35,326 bases of DNA, taken from positions 1 to 35,326 of the IMG/VR virus record IMGVR_UViG_3300014501_000045; one strand, 5' to 3'. The translations under genes and the position numbers were made by a program. The notes under the pieces were generated by a model that did no database searches, was not told the origin of the DNA, and worked only from the letters and a program-made list of their open reading frames with translations. The stretch is from a virus. Shown piece by piece: positions 17,006 through 35,326 of the stretch. Positions within the stretch are counted from its first letter, which is position 1. Each line of letters begins with the position of its first letter.

Positions 17006-18028
17006 TTACTGATACGGCATCGAGATAACGGTAACGCCCTCGGGACGAACTGCCCACCCCGAGCTGATGCGCCACTCCGAAAGCACGTCGATCGCGCCGC
17101 CGGCCAGCGGCGTCGGGATCTCGCGCGGCGCCGCCATGTCGGCGTACTGGAGCGTCACCGCGTCCATGCCGGGCGAGAGCTTCGCGAACTCGTTGGTGTT
17201 GTACGGCGAGCCGTTCGGCTTGGCGACCTCGGGCATCACCAGCAGCACGGCATCGGTGCCGCCGGCGCCCTTGCCGATCAGCGTATCGTCGTAGGTCCAG
17301 ATCATAGTGTCGCCATTCTCCATCAGGACTTCCTGGACCGTCCCCTTGGTCGAGGCCGAGCCGGCGCCGACGCGCTGGAACTGCACCAGCTGGACGATCC
17401 CGGCATACTCCATCTGCGAGAGCGTCCTCTGCGGCCCGATGAAGACGAACTTACGGCCGATGCCCATCTGGTTGGTCCGGCTCTTCATCGCCTGGACCTG
17501 GCCCAGCAGGAAGAACGCCATCTGACCGTTATCGTAGGTCACGACCGTAATGTTGCCGTTCGAGTCCGGCGGCAGCGAGATCGTCGTCGATCCCTGGCCG
17601 TTCAGCAGCCCCTCACCGTTGACCGGGTTGAGCCCGTACAGCAGCGCCGAGCGCGCGAGCTGAAAGTGCGCTTGGCGCATGCCCAACCGGTAGGCGTCGA
17701 CGATCGAGAAGCCCCAGTTGGCCGCCGCCGCGGTATCGTGATGATCATATTCGGCGCGGACACGCTGGAGGTACGTTGCCGTGCTGACCATCGACGCCGC
17801 GATGTTGATGCTGGGCAGCTCGTTATACGCGGCCTGCCCGGCGGCGATCCGGGTCCGCAGGTCCAGGCGCTTAACGTAAACGTAGAGGTCTCCCTCGCCC
17901 AGTTTGACGCGCGGGCCGCCGCCAGCGAGCGTATCGAACGCGCCCGAGGCTTGGTTGTACTGCATGATGATCTCCGGCTCCAGAAGCGACGGATGCGTCT
18001 GGACCCAGGAGGGCGCGATGATTGCCAT
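17006..18028 (-). CDS. Major capsid protein (DUF2184-like, HK97 fold)
   Basis: A 340-residue protein with an excellent ribosome binding site (GGAGGAG) 7 bases before ATG. The phrases MAIIAPSWVQTHPSLLEPEI, YDHHDTAAAANWGFSIVDAYRLGMRQAHFQLARSALLYG, GRKFVFIGPQRTLSQMEYAG and the C-terminal beta segment ending VRPEGVTVISMPYQ match what I know of the DUF2184 capsid family. Position between the second structural protein and the neck module, the lack of a separate delta domain (a scaffold is probably supplied by the protease fusion) and strong translation signals support it. HK97-fold capsids of this type make the icosahedral shell. Confidence 0.85.
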   Translation of the reverse strand: MAIIAPSWVQTHPSLLEPEIIMQYNQASGAFDTLAGGGPRVKLGEGDLYVYVKRLDLRTRIAAGQAAYNELPSINIAASMVSTATYLQRVRAEYDHHDTAAAANWGFSIVDAYRLGMRQAHFQLARSALLYGLNPVNGEGLLNGQGSTTISLPPDSNGNITVVTYDNGQMAFFLLGQVQAMKSRTNQMGIGRKFVFIGPQRTLSQMEYAGIVQLVQFQRVGAGSASTKGTVQEVLMENGDTMIWTYDDTLIGKGAGGTDAVLLVMPEVAKPNGSPYNTNEFAKLSPGMDAVTLQYADMAAPREIPTPLAGGAIDVLSEWRISSGWAVRPEGVTVISMPYQ

Positions 18029-31339: not shown

Positions 31340-31981
31340 TTACGTTCCGGTGCCGAGGTAAACTGGTTTTTTGCTCGTGCGCTGCGACGGCTGCAAAAGC
31401 CCGGCGTCCTCGGCCTGATCGCGCGTAGCCTTGCGCAGAAATGCGTGCGGTACGAACATCTCGGTCTGGCGCCCCAGCAGCGTTGCCAGCACGCGCGCAC
31501 CGCGGCCGTCGACCCACGAGCACTCGGCGAGGTGCCCGGAGAACGGGCCGCCGACCATGATCACGCAGTCGCCGCGACGGTACACGACCCGGTCAACCTC
31601 GGGCGTCGGCACCACGCCGTCGGCGTCAGCTGCGTTGAACCAAACGCTGAGCGAGGTCTCGCTGATCTGCACCGGGTCCGGGCCGCCGACGATGCCATAC
31701 ACGCCGGCCGCATCGCGCACGAGGTGCCACTGCGTCGCGTCACGGCCATTGAAGCGCACGAAGACGTAGCCCGAGACCAACGGGCGCAGGACGTCGGAGC
31801 GGCGGCCAAAGCGCTCCTCGACGCAGCGCACGCGCGGACAGAACGTCGGCAGCGCAGCCTTCTTCAGATGCTCCTCGACCTGGGCCTCGCGACCGGCGAG
31901 CGTCAGCGCGACGTGCCAGTGGGTGAAGAGCGGTAGCGCGGCGGTGGGGAGCGAACGCTCTTGGAGGAGGTCCAGAGTCAT
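31340..31981 (-). CDS. NusG-like antitermination factor
   Basis: A 213-residue protein. NGN domain: residues about 20-120 (HWHVALTLAGREAQVEEHLKK, then SGYVFVRFN, VYGIVGGPDPVQIS). KOW domain: about 134-178 (YRRGDCVIMVGGPFSGHLAECSWVDGR, then VLATLLGRQTEMFVP). A Ser/Lys-rich C-terminal tail follows. NusG/RfaH relatives bind RNA polymerase and suppress pausing or termination. Its placing directly upstream of the terminase genes suggests it promotes read-through of late genes. The start ATG overlaps the stop of the AT-rich gene by four bases. A role in antitermination is inferred. Confidence 0.85.
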   Translation of the reverse strand: MTLDLLQERSLPTAALPLFTHWHVALTLAGREAQVEEHLKKAALPTFCPRVRCVEERFGRRSDVLRPLVSGYVFVRFNGRDATQWHLVRDAAGVYGIVGGPDPVQISETSLSVWFNAADADGVVPTPEVDRVVYRRGDCVIMVGGPFSGHLAECSWVDGRGARVLATLLGRQTEMFVPHAFLRKATRDQAEDAGLLQPSQRTSKKPVYLGTGT

Positions 31982-32448
31982 ATAATCAAGTTGCTTTCGT
32001 CAAAGACACATACTGCGCTCATAAAAGATTGAGCCCAAGTGGTAGCCTGTTCTCTTATTAAAAACGATAGCGCGACGCGTGAACAAACGTAATTTCCAAC
32101 GTATATCGGAACTAAGACAAACGCGTTCCTATCCCAAAACTCGTCTCCAAGATTAGGAACGTCTTCTATATCTTTAGTATAGAACGGAATAATCGTTACA
32201 GACGTATGCGCCGAAGCATAAGAAATGATGCTTTCCAACGAACGATCAACAAGGATCGCGTACTCCGTAATAGGAATCGGAGAGGAAGCCAAAGTAACGC
32301 TCGTCATAGCCAATACAGCCACACAAAAAGGACTCCATACACTAGAGACCAAGTTAGAGTCGCAATTAAAAAGGTACGAAGACCAATCTTTCCTGAATGA
32401 TATATACCGCGTGGCGCAAAAGGCATCTTCACAACCCATTCGGTTCAT
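31978..32448 (-). CDS. AT-rich unknown protein between sugar kinase and NusG-like gene
   Basis: The open frame runs from ATG 32448 (156 residues) to a stop overlapping the NusG-like ATG (ATGA); alternative starts are ATG 32439 and ATG 32307, and no start has a good ribosome binding site. The sequence is hydrophobic (SSVWSPFCVAVLAMTSVTLASSP may be a signal or membrane segment), then PITEYAILVDRSLESIISYASAHTSV and FWDRNAFVLVPIYVGNYVC. The region is visibly AT-richer than its surroundings (about 40% G+C by eye-count). A 75-codon plus-strand frame also exists here and is less likely. Function unknown; probably acquired. Confidence 0.5.
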   Translation of the reverse strand: MNRMGCEDAFCATRYISFRKDWSSYLFNCDSNLVSSVWSPFCVAVLAMTSVTLASSPIPITEYAILVDRSLESIISYASAHTSVTIIPFYTKDIEDVPNLGDEFWDRNAFVLVPIYVGNYVCSRVALSFLIREQATTWAQSFMSAVCVFDESNLII

Positions 32449-33427
32449 ATAGCACTACGCGGCTGCCGTCACGATCGAGTCCAACGCCGACCTCGACCAG
32501 TCCCACCAGCGCGCGGCGCAGATCGGCGCGTCGCCTGGGCGGCACCACGAACAGAAAGAAACCGCCGCCGCCGGCGCCCAGGAGCTTGCCGCCGACCGCA
32601 CCGTGACGGCGAGCGAGATCGTAATACGCGTCCAGCGTCGGGTTTGATACCTCTGACGCCAGTTCGCGCTTCACGAGCCAGCTCGCGTGGAGCAACTCAC
32701 CCAACTCAATGAGCGGCCGGGTTGACGCGAGAAGGCCATCCGCCTCATCGACCATCGCGCGCAGCGCGGTCAGATGCGCGGCGTTGCGCTTGGTATTTGA
32801 GATCTTCTCCGCCTCAACGTCGACCGCGAACCGTTGAAATCCGGTGAAATAGAGGACCAGGTGTGCGAGCAGATCGTCGACTCGCGAGCGCGACAGTACC
32901 AACGGCGTCACGGTAAAATCGTCCGCGGCGAAGTCGATCCGGTTGAGGCCACCGTGTGCCGCCCACACCTGATCCTGGCTACCGACCGCCTCGCCCAGGG
33001 TGCTCTGCTCGATGAGAATCGCCTCGGTCGCGAGGCAGCGCTTACTGACGCGTTGCCCGCGGAGCGCGCGAACAGCGTTCAGCATGCCGACGGTGAAGGC
33101 CGAGGAGCTGCCGAGGCCGCTCTTCGCCGGCAGGTCGCCGTCGTGGTGGATCTCCAGACCGCCGTTCTCACCCTCGGGCCACGCCGCGCCCAGCACGGCG
33201 CGCGCCGCCGGGTGCTCGATGTCGATCGCGTGGCGCACGGTCTCGACGCGCGTGTATACGAGCCGATGGCGGTGCTCAAAAAACGGCGGCAGGCGGCGCA
33301 CGGTGATCCAGCAGTAGCGGTTGAGCGCGAAGCCGAGGACCGCACCGTCGTGCTCGCGGTACCAGGCCGGGTGATCGGTGCCGCCGCCGAACAGGCTGAC
33401 GCGGAAGGGCGTGCGTGTGATGATCAC
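32429..33427 (-). CDS. GHMP sugar kinase, D-glycero-D-manno-heptose-7-phosphate kinase type
   Basis: I start at GTG 33427 (VIITRTPFRVSLFGGGTD), preceded by AAGGAG 11 bases upstream and overlapping the HTH stop by four bases. The frame is open to 33511. Motif 1 is RTPFRVSLFGGGTD; motif 2 is PAKSGLGSSSA (about 100-110), the ATP phosphate-binding loop; motif 3 is KLLGAGGGGFFLFVV (about 281-295). The 332-residue length fits GHMP kinases, and the opening is like HddA and related heptose or hexose kinases. It probably makes a sugar-1-phosphate for nucleotide-sugar synthesis, to feed the glycosyltransferases nearby. The exact sugar is not resolved. Confidence 0.82.
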   Translation of the reverse strand: MIITRTPFRVSLFGGGTDHPAWYREHDGAVLGFALNRYCWITVRRLPPFFEHRHRLVYTRVETVRHAIDIEHPAARAVLGAAWPEGENGGLEIHHDGDLPAKSGLGSSSAFTVGMLNAVRALRGQRVSKRCLATEAILIEQSTLGEAVGSQDQVWAAHGGLNRIDFAADDFTVTPLVLSRSRVDDLLAHLVLYFTGFQRFAVDVEAEKISNTKRNAAHLTALRAMVDEADGLLASTRPLIELGELLHASWLVKRELASEVSNPTLDAYYDLARRHGAVGGKLLGAGGGGFFLFVVPPRRRADLRRALVGLVEVGVGLDRDGSRVVLYEPNGL

Positions 33428-33600
33428 GCCGGGGCGCGCTCCTTGTAAATCTTCTCGTGGATGATGTTGTGGATCGTCACCGCTGAAACGCCATAGCGCT
33501 GGCCGAGCCATTTCAACGTCGGGCGATGTATATCCGCGTACGCCGCACGAATAGCACGTGCGTCGTTCTGGGTCAGCCGACGGTTAGTGCGGTCAGCCAC
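33424..33600 (-). CDS. Small helix-turn-helix protein (58 residues)
   Basis: Too short for many callers. It starts GTG 33600 inside the stop of the radical SAM gene (8-base overlap) and its stop overlaps the kinase start (GTGA). The product VADRTNRRLTQNDARAIRAAY continues as ADIHRPTLKWLGQRYGVS, then AVTIHNIIHEKIYKERAP. Residues 28-53 form a clear HTH: helix TLKWLGQRYG, turn V-S, recognition helix AVTIHNIIHEK. Small proteins of this design occur next to phage genes and homing endonucleases. It may regulate or bind DNA; role unknown. Confidence 0.72.
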   Translation of the reverse strand: MADRTNRRLTQNDARAIRAAYADIHRPTLKWLGQRYGVSAVTIHNIIHEKIYKERAPA

Positions 33601-35326
33601 CTAACAGCTCCCGCGGCAAGTGGTACGTCGTCATCGCGCGCACGTGCTCCACCGCCTCGGCGCCGAACTTGCGCTCAACCAGCGCGAGGTAGCGCGGGTC
33701 AGTGAAGTACGCCGTGAACGCAGCGTCGCGGAAGCGCAGCACCGTCGCGGCGTCGACGTGCAGCGTGTCGAGCGGCCGGCATAGCGCGTTGTGCTGCGAG
33801 TACCCGGCCCAGGAAGTAGGGAGCGCCCAGCCCTCGGCGAGCGCCTGCTCGTACAGCGGACTGCCGGGATATGCCATCGTACTGTAGAAATTGGCGAACT
33901 CCGGCAAGCACTCCAGCGCCAGATCGAGCGTCTGGTGCATCGTCGCCTCGGTATCGTCGCGCAGGCCGAACATGAAGTTACCGATGACGTTGATCCCGGC
34001 CGCCTGCACCTGACGCACGACGCCGACGATGTCATCTTGCCGCAGCGCCTTCTCGGCGCCGTCGCGCACGAGCGCGCTGCCCGACTCGATGCCGAGCGCG
34101 AGCCAGCGGAAGCCGGCGGCGTACATCTTCGGCAGGAGGCCGGCCTTGACCGTGTCGACGCGTGCGTAGGCCCAAAGGTTGAAATCTTCTGGGAAATGAC
34201 CATCGATCAACAGGTCGCAAATCGCCTCGACGTGGCGGTGGTTGAGGACGAACATCTCATCGGTGATCTTGAACGTGCGGACGCCGTACATCTCGTATAG
34301 GGTTGCGATCTCCTTGACCACGTCAATAGGGTCGCGCATGCGGTAACGACGCGCGTCGAAGGGGGAGTTGATGCAGCAGAAAGAACAGTTCTTGACCAGG
34401 ACATTGTTCGCGTAAAACCAGCCAGTCTCGGGGACTTCCAGGCAGTACACGTCGTGAAGACCTGGCAGGGGTTCGACCGATACTACCTGGGAGAACGCTC
34501 CAGTAATTCGCCATCTACCTTCTCGCCAGCCGTAGCCACCTTCTATAGGCTCACCAGCCGATTGTAAATCATTACACCACGCGCGAACGTGGCTCCCGAT
34601 CTTCAGATCACTAGCAGAGCGGGCGCGCGTTACGCCATCTTGATGCTCAGATTCCTGAAATTCATGGTCTGGAGTGCAATCAATGTATGTGCCGTCACCG
34701 AAGCGCACGCGAACCAGACGCTCGTTTTCACCATATCGTTGGATATTTCTCGCGTTTGCCAGTTGTCTATACCCAGTTTCTAGGTCAAAACTGCAAACCT
34801 TTATCTCTTTAACGCCCTGGTCTACAAGGTCGCCGATCAACCTTGGCCCATAGGCCGTATGGATGGTGGTGTCAGCGGCCAAACACCGATATGGGCACCC
34901 TAACGACGTCATCACCGACGCGTACGGCTGGCGCTGGTCGAGGCTGCCAAACCGCTGCCAGTTGTGGCTACGATAGCGGTCCATCGGCAACAGGTCCCAG
35001 ACTGCGCCGTGGAGCATCGGCATGTCGATCAATGGAGCGGGCGGGTTGACCTTGACCGAGTCTCTATCGCGCCAGACTAGCCCAGGAATGACCCTTAAGC
35101 TCTCCGGATCGTCAATAAGATTACGGTCTAGACCGAGCAATTGAACGATCGTCTCCGGCCCCTCACCCTTACACGCGAAATCTACAAACTCTTCATCCAT
35201 CGTTCGCTGTGGCAACGCTGATACGTGACCACCGACGATGATAGTCGTAAACTCGCTTGGTAGCGCCATCGCGATCGCCCGCGCGCCAGCCATCTGCTGC
35301 GTCGACGCCGACGGCTGGTGGCCAAA
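33593..35326 (-). CDS. Cobalamin-binding radical SAM enzyme with in-frame mini-intein (5' cut by window edge)
   Basis: The frame is open to the right edge, adding FGHQPSASTQQ before the first ATG at 35293, so the true start lies outside. The visible start (GGHVSALPQRTMDEEFVDFACKGEGPE) is the end of a B12-binding domain. The radical SAM motif is split: CPYR (Cys133) is followed by a 166-residue intein and then CSFC (Cys303, Cys306; numbering from the ATG at 35293). Spliced, it gives CPYRCSFC, the CxxxCxxC [4Fe-4S] ligand set. Later motifs include FKITDEMFVLNHRH, AGFRWLALGIESGS and GNFMFGLRDDTEATM. Radical SAM-B12 enzymes often methylate or rearrange unreactive carbons. The following GHMP kinase suggests a sugar-related role, which is inference. 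Confidence 0.85.
   Translation of the reverse strand, partial: FGHQPSASTQQMAGARAIAMALPSEFTTIIVGGHVSALPQRTMDEEFVDFACKGEGPETIVQLLGLDRNLIDDPESLRVIPGLVWRDRDSVKVNPPAPLIDMPMLHGAVWDLLPMDRYRSHNWQRFGSLDQRQPYASVMTSLGCPYRCLAADTTIHTAYGPRLIGDLVDQGVKEIKVCSFDLETGYRQLANARNIQRYGENERLVRVRFGDGTYIDCTPDHEFQESEHQDGVTRARSASDLKIGSHVRAWCNDLQSAGEPIEGGYGWREGRWRITGAFSQVVSVEPLPGLHDVYCLEVPETGWFYANNVLVKNCSFCCINSPFDARRYRMRDPIDVVKEIATLYEMYGVRTFKITDEMFVLNHRHVEAICDLLIDGHFPEDFNLWAYARVDTVKAGLLPKMYAAGFRWLALGIESGSALVRDGAEKALRQDDIVGVVRQVQAAGINVIGNFMFGLRDDTEATMHQTLDLALECLPEFANFYSTMAYPGSPLYEQALAEGWALPTSWAGYSQHNALCRPLDTLHVDAATVLRFRDAAFTAYFTDPRYLALVERKFGAEAVEHVRAMTTYHLPRELLGG
34388..34885 (-). other. Mini-intein coding segment in radical SAM gene
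   Basis: 166 codons, Cys137 to Asn302 of the host frame counted from ATG 35293, followed by Cys303 as the +1 extein nucleophile. Block A: CLAADTTIHTAYGPRLIGDL. Block B: DCTPDHEF, with Thr207 and His210 as the TxxH pair. C-terminal blocks F and G: HDVYCLEVPETGWFYANNVL ending in VKN then Cys. The penultimate residue is Lys instead of the usual His, and the F-block position before FYANN is Trp. No endonuclease domain is present. G+C by eye-count is about 52%, lower than the flanks (63-73%), consistent with independent acquisition. Confidence 0.88.

Follow-up and report, generated by a model that had tools for sequence, protein, structure and literature searches.

A mini-intein at the second cluster cysteine of a phage radical SAM protein and its same-site relatives in viral contigs

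The interrupted radical SAM gene

The window analyzed here, which is the whole of a 35,326-base virus record, carries the terminase, portal, tail sheath, and baseplate protein genes of a tailed phage. At its right end, on the minus strand, a frame of 577 codons runs open to the edge of the record; homologs such as that on contig L005 (relatives are designated by contig) reach ~90 residues further upstream. The features of this gene are as follows.

33593..35326, minus strand: precursor open reading frame, a partial B12-binding/radical SAM protein with an intein (577 aa; incomplete at its 5′ end, where the contig stops)
34886..35326, minus strand: N-extein, 147 aa, ending in TSLGCPYR, with the first cluster Cys at −4 (from the sequence)
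34388..34885, minus strand: mini-intein, 166 aa (C1 to N166), with no endonuclease domain (from profiles, predicted fold, and sequence)
34883..34885, minus strand: Cys1, the N-terminal nucleophile, block A (from the sequence; invariant in the family alignment)
34664..34675, minus strand: block B TPDH, T71 to H74 (from the sequence; invariant in the family alignment, with TSDH in L096 and L105)
34469..34576, minus strand: linker, intein residues ~104 to 139, the place of the HNH endonuclease in relatives (residues 106 to 118 have pLDDT <50)
34442..34444, minus strand: Cys148 at block F position 4, usually Asp in class 1 inteins (invariant in 23/23 family members)
34421..34423, minus strand: Gly155, occupying the block F His position (L029, L096, and L101 have His)
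34391..34393, minus strand: Lys165, the penultimate residue, canonically His (from the family alignment)
34388..34390, minus strand: Asn166, the C-terminal Asn for cyclization (from the sequence; invariant in the family alignment)
34385..34387, minus strand: +1 Cys, the second [4Fe-4S] ligand of CxxxCxxC (from the sequence and intein-free homologs)
33593..34387, minus strand: C-extein, 264 aa, the radical SAM core starting CSFC (PF04055, 41 bits, residues 313 to 470)

Adjoining this gene (32429 to 33511, minus strand) is a GHMP-type kinase, a sugar-related function in a phage, that lies nearest to the D-glycero-D-manno-heptose 7-phosphate kinase HddA (125.7 bits against a cut-off of 600). A NusG/RfaH/UpxY-like antiterminator is encoded at 31340 to 31981, minus strand (phrog_6386, 74.8 bits), and the product of 17006 to 18028, minus strand, gives a full-length match to phrog_6671, a group of unknown function (467 bits); its position suggests a major capsid protein.

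The intein occupies residues 148 to 313 of the open precursor frame: Cys1 comes directly after TSLGCPYR, and VLVKN at the intein end is followed by CSFCCINSPF. The joined exteins read CPYRCSFC, a CxxxCxxC motif, and match PF04055 (Radical_SAM) in a profile search at 41 bits against a cut-off of 29.5, which places the protein in the radical SAM superfamily. The profile matches of the exteins are to B12-dependent radical SAM types, and the enzyme is likely of the cobalamin type, but the contig stops within the B12-binding domain, which scores below its cut-off (PF02310, 20 bits against 32.1).

Three lines of evidence establish the segment as an intein. (i) Curated intein profiles recognize it above their cut-offs in the window protein: PF14890 (41.1 bits against 35.8), the splicing profile TIGR01445 (35.4 bits against 24.5), and TIGR01443 (17.4 bits in the whole protein against 15.6, and 15.1 for the intein alone). 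(ii) An AlphaFold2 prediction from the window intein and ten relatives (pLDDT 87, pTM 0.82) has only inteins and Hint relatives as its top PDB matches (Foldseek, VIA-align); it aligns with the Ssp and Npu DnaB inteins (1mi8 and 4o1r) at a Z of 20.3, with an rmsd of 1.5 over 135 residues for the Ssp DnaB intein. A model of the whole precursor (mean pLDDT 71, junctions <50) was left out of the argument. (iii) A viral-contig scan with the whole protein returned homologs 50 to 65% identical to it, and in all six of those compared (L005, L006, L007, L009, L010, and L012) the CxxxCxxC motif is uninterrupted at the insertion place. Intein-free phage homologs read CPYKCSFC unbroken, their exteins contiguous and the segment absent, so the segment is not part of the radical SAM fold.

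Positions 34388 to 34885 of the window are therefore confirmed as an intein in a radical SAM protein. The initial annotation, made from the letters alone, had seen a mini-intein at the second cluster Cys, with that Cys as the +1 nucleophile and Lys replacing the penultimate His, and each of these elements stands: the intein has 166 aa and no HNH domain, compared with full-length relatives of 270 to 328 aa that carry one in nearly all cases; the insertion splits CPYR from CSFC; the +1 Cys lies at 34385..34387; and the penultimate residue is Lys165. The motifs that it gave (CLAADTT in block A, TPDH, VKN, and CPYR|CSFC) were all exact, and its N302, a number obtained by counting from the ATG at 35293, corresponds to Asn313 in the open frame and Asn166 in the intein.

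A same-site intein family and its mobility

The initial annotation also held a mini-intein in a phage-encoded cobalamin-type radical SAM enzyme to be unusual, a view that finds no support. A homologous intein sits at the identical residue in at least 24 other IMG/VR viral contigs and in one MAG contig, and non-His penultimate residues, Lys included, have already been described in phage inteins (PMC5050341). The family, whose members other than the window copy are all on metagenomic contigs, was recovered in two kinds of scan, one based on an alignment of the first three inteins and the other on a DNA pattern representing the block F/G signature. Every viral member lies directly before the second Cys of CxxxCxxC, with three residues between the first cluster Cys and C1 (L102 preserves the C-terminal junction only), and the exteins around it vary: CPYK|CSFC, CPYT|CSFC, CPFN|CSFC, CPFQ|CTYC, CKFN|CSFC, CSFH|CKFC, and CPYK|CCFC. 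The DNA around the insertion site tracks the protein motif, with third positions free.

When 84,980 bacterial and archaeal species genomes were scanned with two short patterns, the one confirmed locus was a 7.6-kb MAG contig, L110, with the intein at the same site; as far as such a scan sees, the lineage is mainly viral. Among annotated phage records, the search returned only a distant radical SAM protein in Streptomyces phage SF3 and weak intein/HNH matches, and a search of plasmids returned none. Some contigs carry more than one intein: in L030 and L032, a single gene with a 1576-aa frame holds at least three, perhaps more, one after another, and L040, L045, and L086 also have a multi-intein appearance.

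Inteins are usually tied to one gene and one site. Members of this family that are 60 to 69% identical nevertheless lie in exteins that are only 17 to 25% identical, a discordance seen in nineteen pairs, among them L017 and L024 (inteins 69% identical, exteins 17%). The correlation between intein and extein identity is still positive (Mantel r 0.52): transfer across genes is frequent without being random. In a tree of the splicing domain, the grouping of all inteins from window-type exteins into one clade is rejected (p-AU 2e-9).

One individual case pairs L013 and L014, whose mini-inteins have 140 residues, with L022, which has a full HNH intein; the window copy, L013, and L014 are the members from which HNH is absent. 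Between these contigs the intein has a dS of 0.06 to 0.08 and a dN of 0 (first 74 codons), compared with an extein dS of 0.49 to 0.62, and for ~90 bases to the left of the site ~29 of every 30 bases are identical, after which identity drops. This is the trace expected of recent homing with co-conversion, with loss of the endonuclease after or alongside it. Together, similar inteins in dissimilar exteins and an intein dS below that of the exteins indicate, on sequence comparison, that the intein homes between different radical SAM genes.

The explanation that we consider very probable is that of one homing lineage fixed at a single site, of which the window mini-intein is a member and whose class 1 splicing would restore the second cluster ligand. 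The window copy would derive from a phage-borne homing intein by loss of its HNH endonuclease, within a lineage that would be fixed at the second Cys of the radical SAM CxxxCxxC and would have moved from phage to phage as well as across radical SAM genes that are not orthologous. We propose that such spread was possible because the motif DNA is the most conserved stretch common to these genes; the HNH domains would then cut the motif DNA itself. One lineage at the same residue of many radical SAM enzymes, in exteins as little as 17% identical, makes the conserved cluster motif seem a superfamily-wide landing site. That a phage lineage finds its homing address in the catalytic metal-ligand motif of an entire enzyme superfamily, and moves in this way among radical SAM genes that are not orthologs, is a proposal to which we give a low probability.

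Splicing and its relation to the iron-sulfur cluster

The window copy retains Cys1, TPDH, Asn166, and the +1 Cys, the core of a class 1 intein. Two usual but nonobligate class 1 features are absent, Cys148 replacing the block F Asp and Lys165 the penultimate His. In class 1 inteins, the block F Asp stabilizes the thiolate at position 1 and aids step 2 (PMC10663303). Block F position 4 is Cys in 23/23 nonredundant family members, the block F His is usually lost (Gly155 in the window; His only in L029, L096, and L101), and the penultimate residue varies (Lys in 11 of the 23, His in 8, Ser in 2, and Arg and Ala in 1 each), such that the window intein is without both of the histidines said to assist Asn cyclization. 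Exceptions to the usual helper residues of class 1 are known (PMC5050341 and PMC7664689), and divergent relatives share the Cys/Lys state, which speaks for function rather than decay. A comparison by eye of blocks F and G in the inteins of L030 to L091 (duplicates likewise judged by eye, counts ignoring phylogeny) pairs an F:4 Asp with a penultimate His in ~25/26 unrelated inteins, and an F:4 Cys or Asn often with a penultimate Lys (L035, L048, L063, and L076).

Most likely, the window intein splices by the ordinary class 1 route, its helper residues being variants. After translation of the precursor, the intein would fold, Cys1 would undergo the N-S acyl shift, the +1 Cys would attack, and Asn166 would cyclize, whereupon the freed +1 Cys would serve the ligated enzyme as its second cluster ligand. 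In the unspliced precursor, the first and second cluster Cys lie 170 residues from each other; cluster binding should fail, and the enzyme should be dead before splicing. Because the three ligands are separated by 166 intein residues, the dependence of activity on splicing that the initial annotation predicted still follows, and because the splicing nucleophile is itself a cluster ligand, splicing would have to precede cluster loading.

It is possible, although doubtful, that splicing is also regulated, as the initial annotation thought conceivable: the intein would be kept as a redox (or metal) gate, so that the oxygen-labile enzyme would be released only in reducing conditions. By analogy, the partner of Cys1 in a disulfide could plausibly be either the −4 extein Cys, which later becomes a cluster ligand, or the block F residue Cys148; the former is present in every family member, and the latter is invariant. 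Precedent comes from the same superfamily, in that a disulfide linking the extein Cys−3 to Cys1 keeps the Pyrococcus abyssi MoaA intein from splicing (Callahan et al. 2011, as recounted in PMC3922620 and PMC10663303), and a disulfide of a catalytic Cys acts as a switch in Mycobacterium smegmatis DnaBi1 (PMC6195587). However, the −4 Cys is needed by the enzyme itself, so its conservation is silent on regulation; the spacing is −4 here and −3 in the tested precedent; and selfish homing alone explains both the pattern of spread and the HNH domains.

The invariant Cys148 also raises a class 3-like or mixed mechanism, in which it would be the first nucleophile or share the acyl group with Cys1, since F:4 Cys is the position of the class 3 nucleophile (PMC7664689, PMC10663303). 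We regard this as distinctly unlikely: Cys1 is equally invariant, the WCT triplet has neither its W (B:12) nor its T (G:5), and grafting WCT onto a class 1 intein gave no splicing (PMC7664689). Class 3 membership proper is rejected by definition, the window intein having Cys1 together with F at B:12, Cys at F:4, and Val at G:5.

Still less probable is decay, by which the window copy would no longer splice and its gene would be a pseudogene. The intein does sit on a long branch of the intein tree (1.58), its endonuclease is gone, three helper residues are noncanonical, and the gene is cut by the contig end; yet the 577 codons are open, every essential residue is retained, as is each of the three cluster Cys, and the penultimate Lys and F:4 Cys are shared with intact relatives and hence are not signs of decay. 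Virtually no weight attaches to the segment being an ordinary insertion in the radical SAM fold, which the intein-free homologs refute, or another kind of Hint domain (BIL or hedgehog-like), since such domains share the fold and appear lower in the list of fold matches but the exact absence in homologs, the intein-specific profiles above cut-off, the C-terminal Asn followed by Cys, and the HNH endonuclease of relatives speak against them.

Comparison with known inteins

MoaA belongs to the radical SAM enzymes, and it and the Rv2578c family of NCBIfam (NF038136) already provide examples of inteins in radical SAM motifs. In the open literature, from which subscription journals are mostly missing, we found no paper on inteins of phage radical SAM proteins; a second-Cys phage lineage, its non-orthologous spread, and an invariant block F Cys were likewise not found there, which at that coverage is weak evidence.

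The P. abyssi MoaA intein resembles that of the window in having a radical SAM host, in adjoining a cluster-motif Cys, and in having an extein Cys close to Cys1, but it is archaeal, with the extein Cys at −3, whereas the window intein occupies the second cluster Cys and its nearest extein Cys is that at −4. The spacing of CxxxCxxC places the MoaA intein probably at the third cluster Cys. The NF038136 profile, which describes an intein-containing family, matches the window protein and its relatives over a stretch that opens shortly ahead of the intein and closes at the +1 Cys; the window scores 15 and 16.1 bits, far below the cut-off of 700, which the control genomes also fell short of, and is outside the family. 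Cys1 is at position 76 of this profile, which aligns without gaps to L004 and with one inserted residue to the window, and its coordinates put the intein probably at the third Cys as well.

Contig L004 (1615 to 2568) supplies a third-Cys intein in a close homolog of the window gene. This gene, 87 to 90% identical in DNA to the intein-free L009, is interrupted exactly before the third cluster Cys (CSF|C) by an HNH intein unrelated to the second-Cys family. Its extein Cys at −3, a position at which the window has none, gives it the geometry of the MoaA redox trap, and a search for this intein found only one other contig, matching its HNH part. This intein and the second-Cys family are thus two independent lineages that occupy neighboring ligands of a single motif within one family of genes. 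The second-Cys lineage and the unrelated third-Cys inteins (L004 and probably MoaA and Rv2578c) make radical SAM proteins a test bed for selfish versus regulatory inteins.

Beyond radical SAM hosts, the best profile match to the full-length family inteins is NF052663, an intein-containing RtcB-related protein (second intein type), with up to 92.6 bits in L031 and 26.2 bits for the window against a cut-off of 1050; its host protein differs from the window's radical SAM protein. Mycobacteriophage class 1 inteins with a penultimate Gly, Lys, or Ser are on record, and one natural penultimate-Gly intein splices well and is slowed by mutation to His (PMC5050341). These inteins reside in other host proteins, and a block F Cys is not described for them in the passages of that paper covered here. 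The present family provides natural inteins that lack the block F Asp, the block F His, and the penultimate His. Class 3 inteins (DnaB-b, mycobacteriophage TerL, and MchDnaB1) share with it the F:4 Cys and links to phages, but they are without Cys1 and carry the W and T of WCT, whereas the window intein has Cys1 and neither W nor T.
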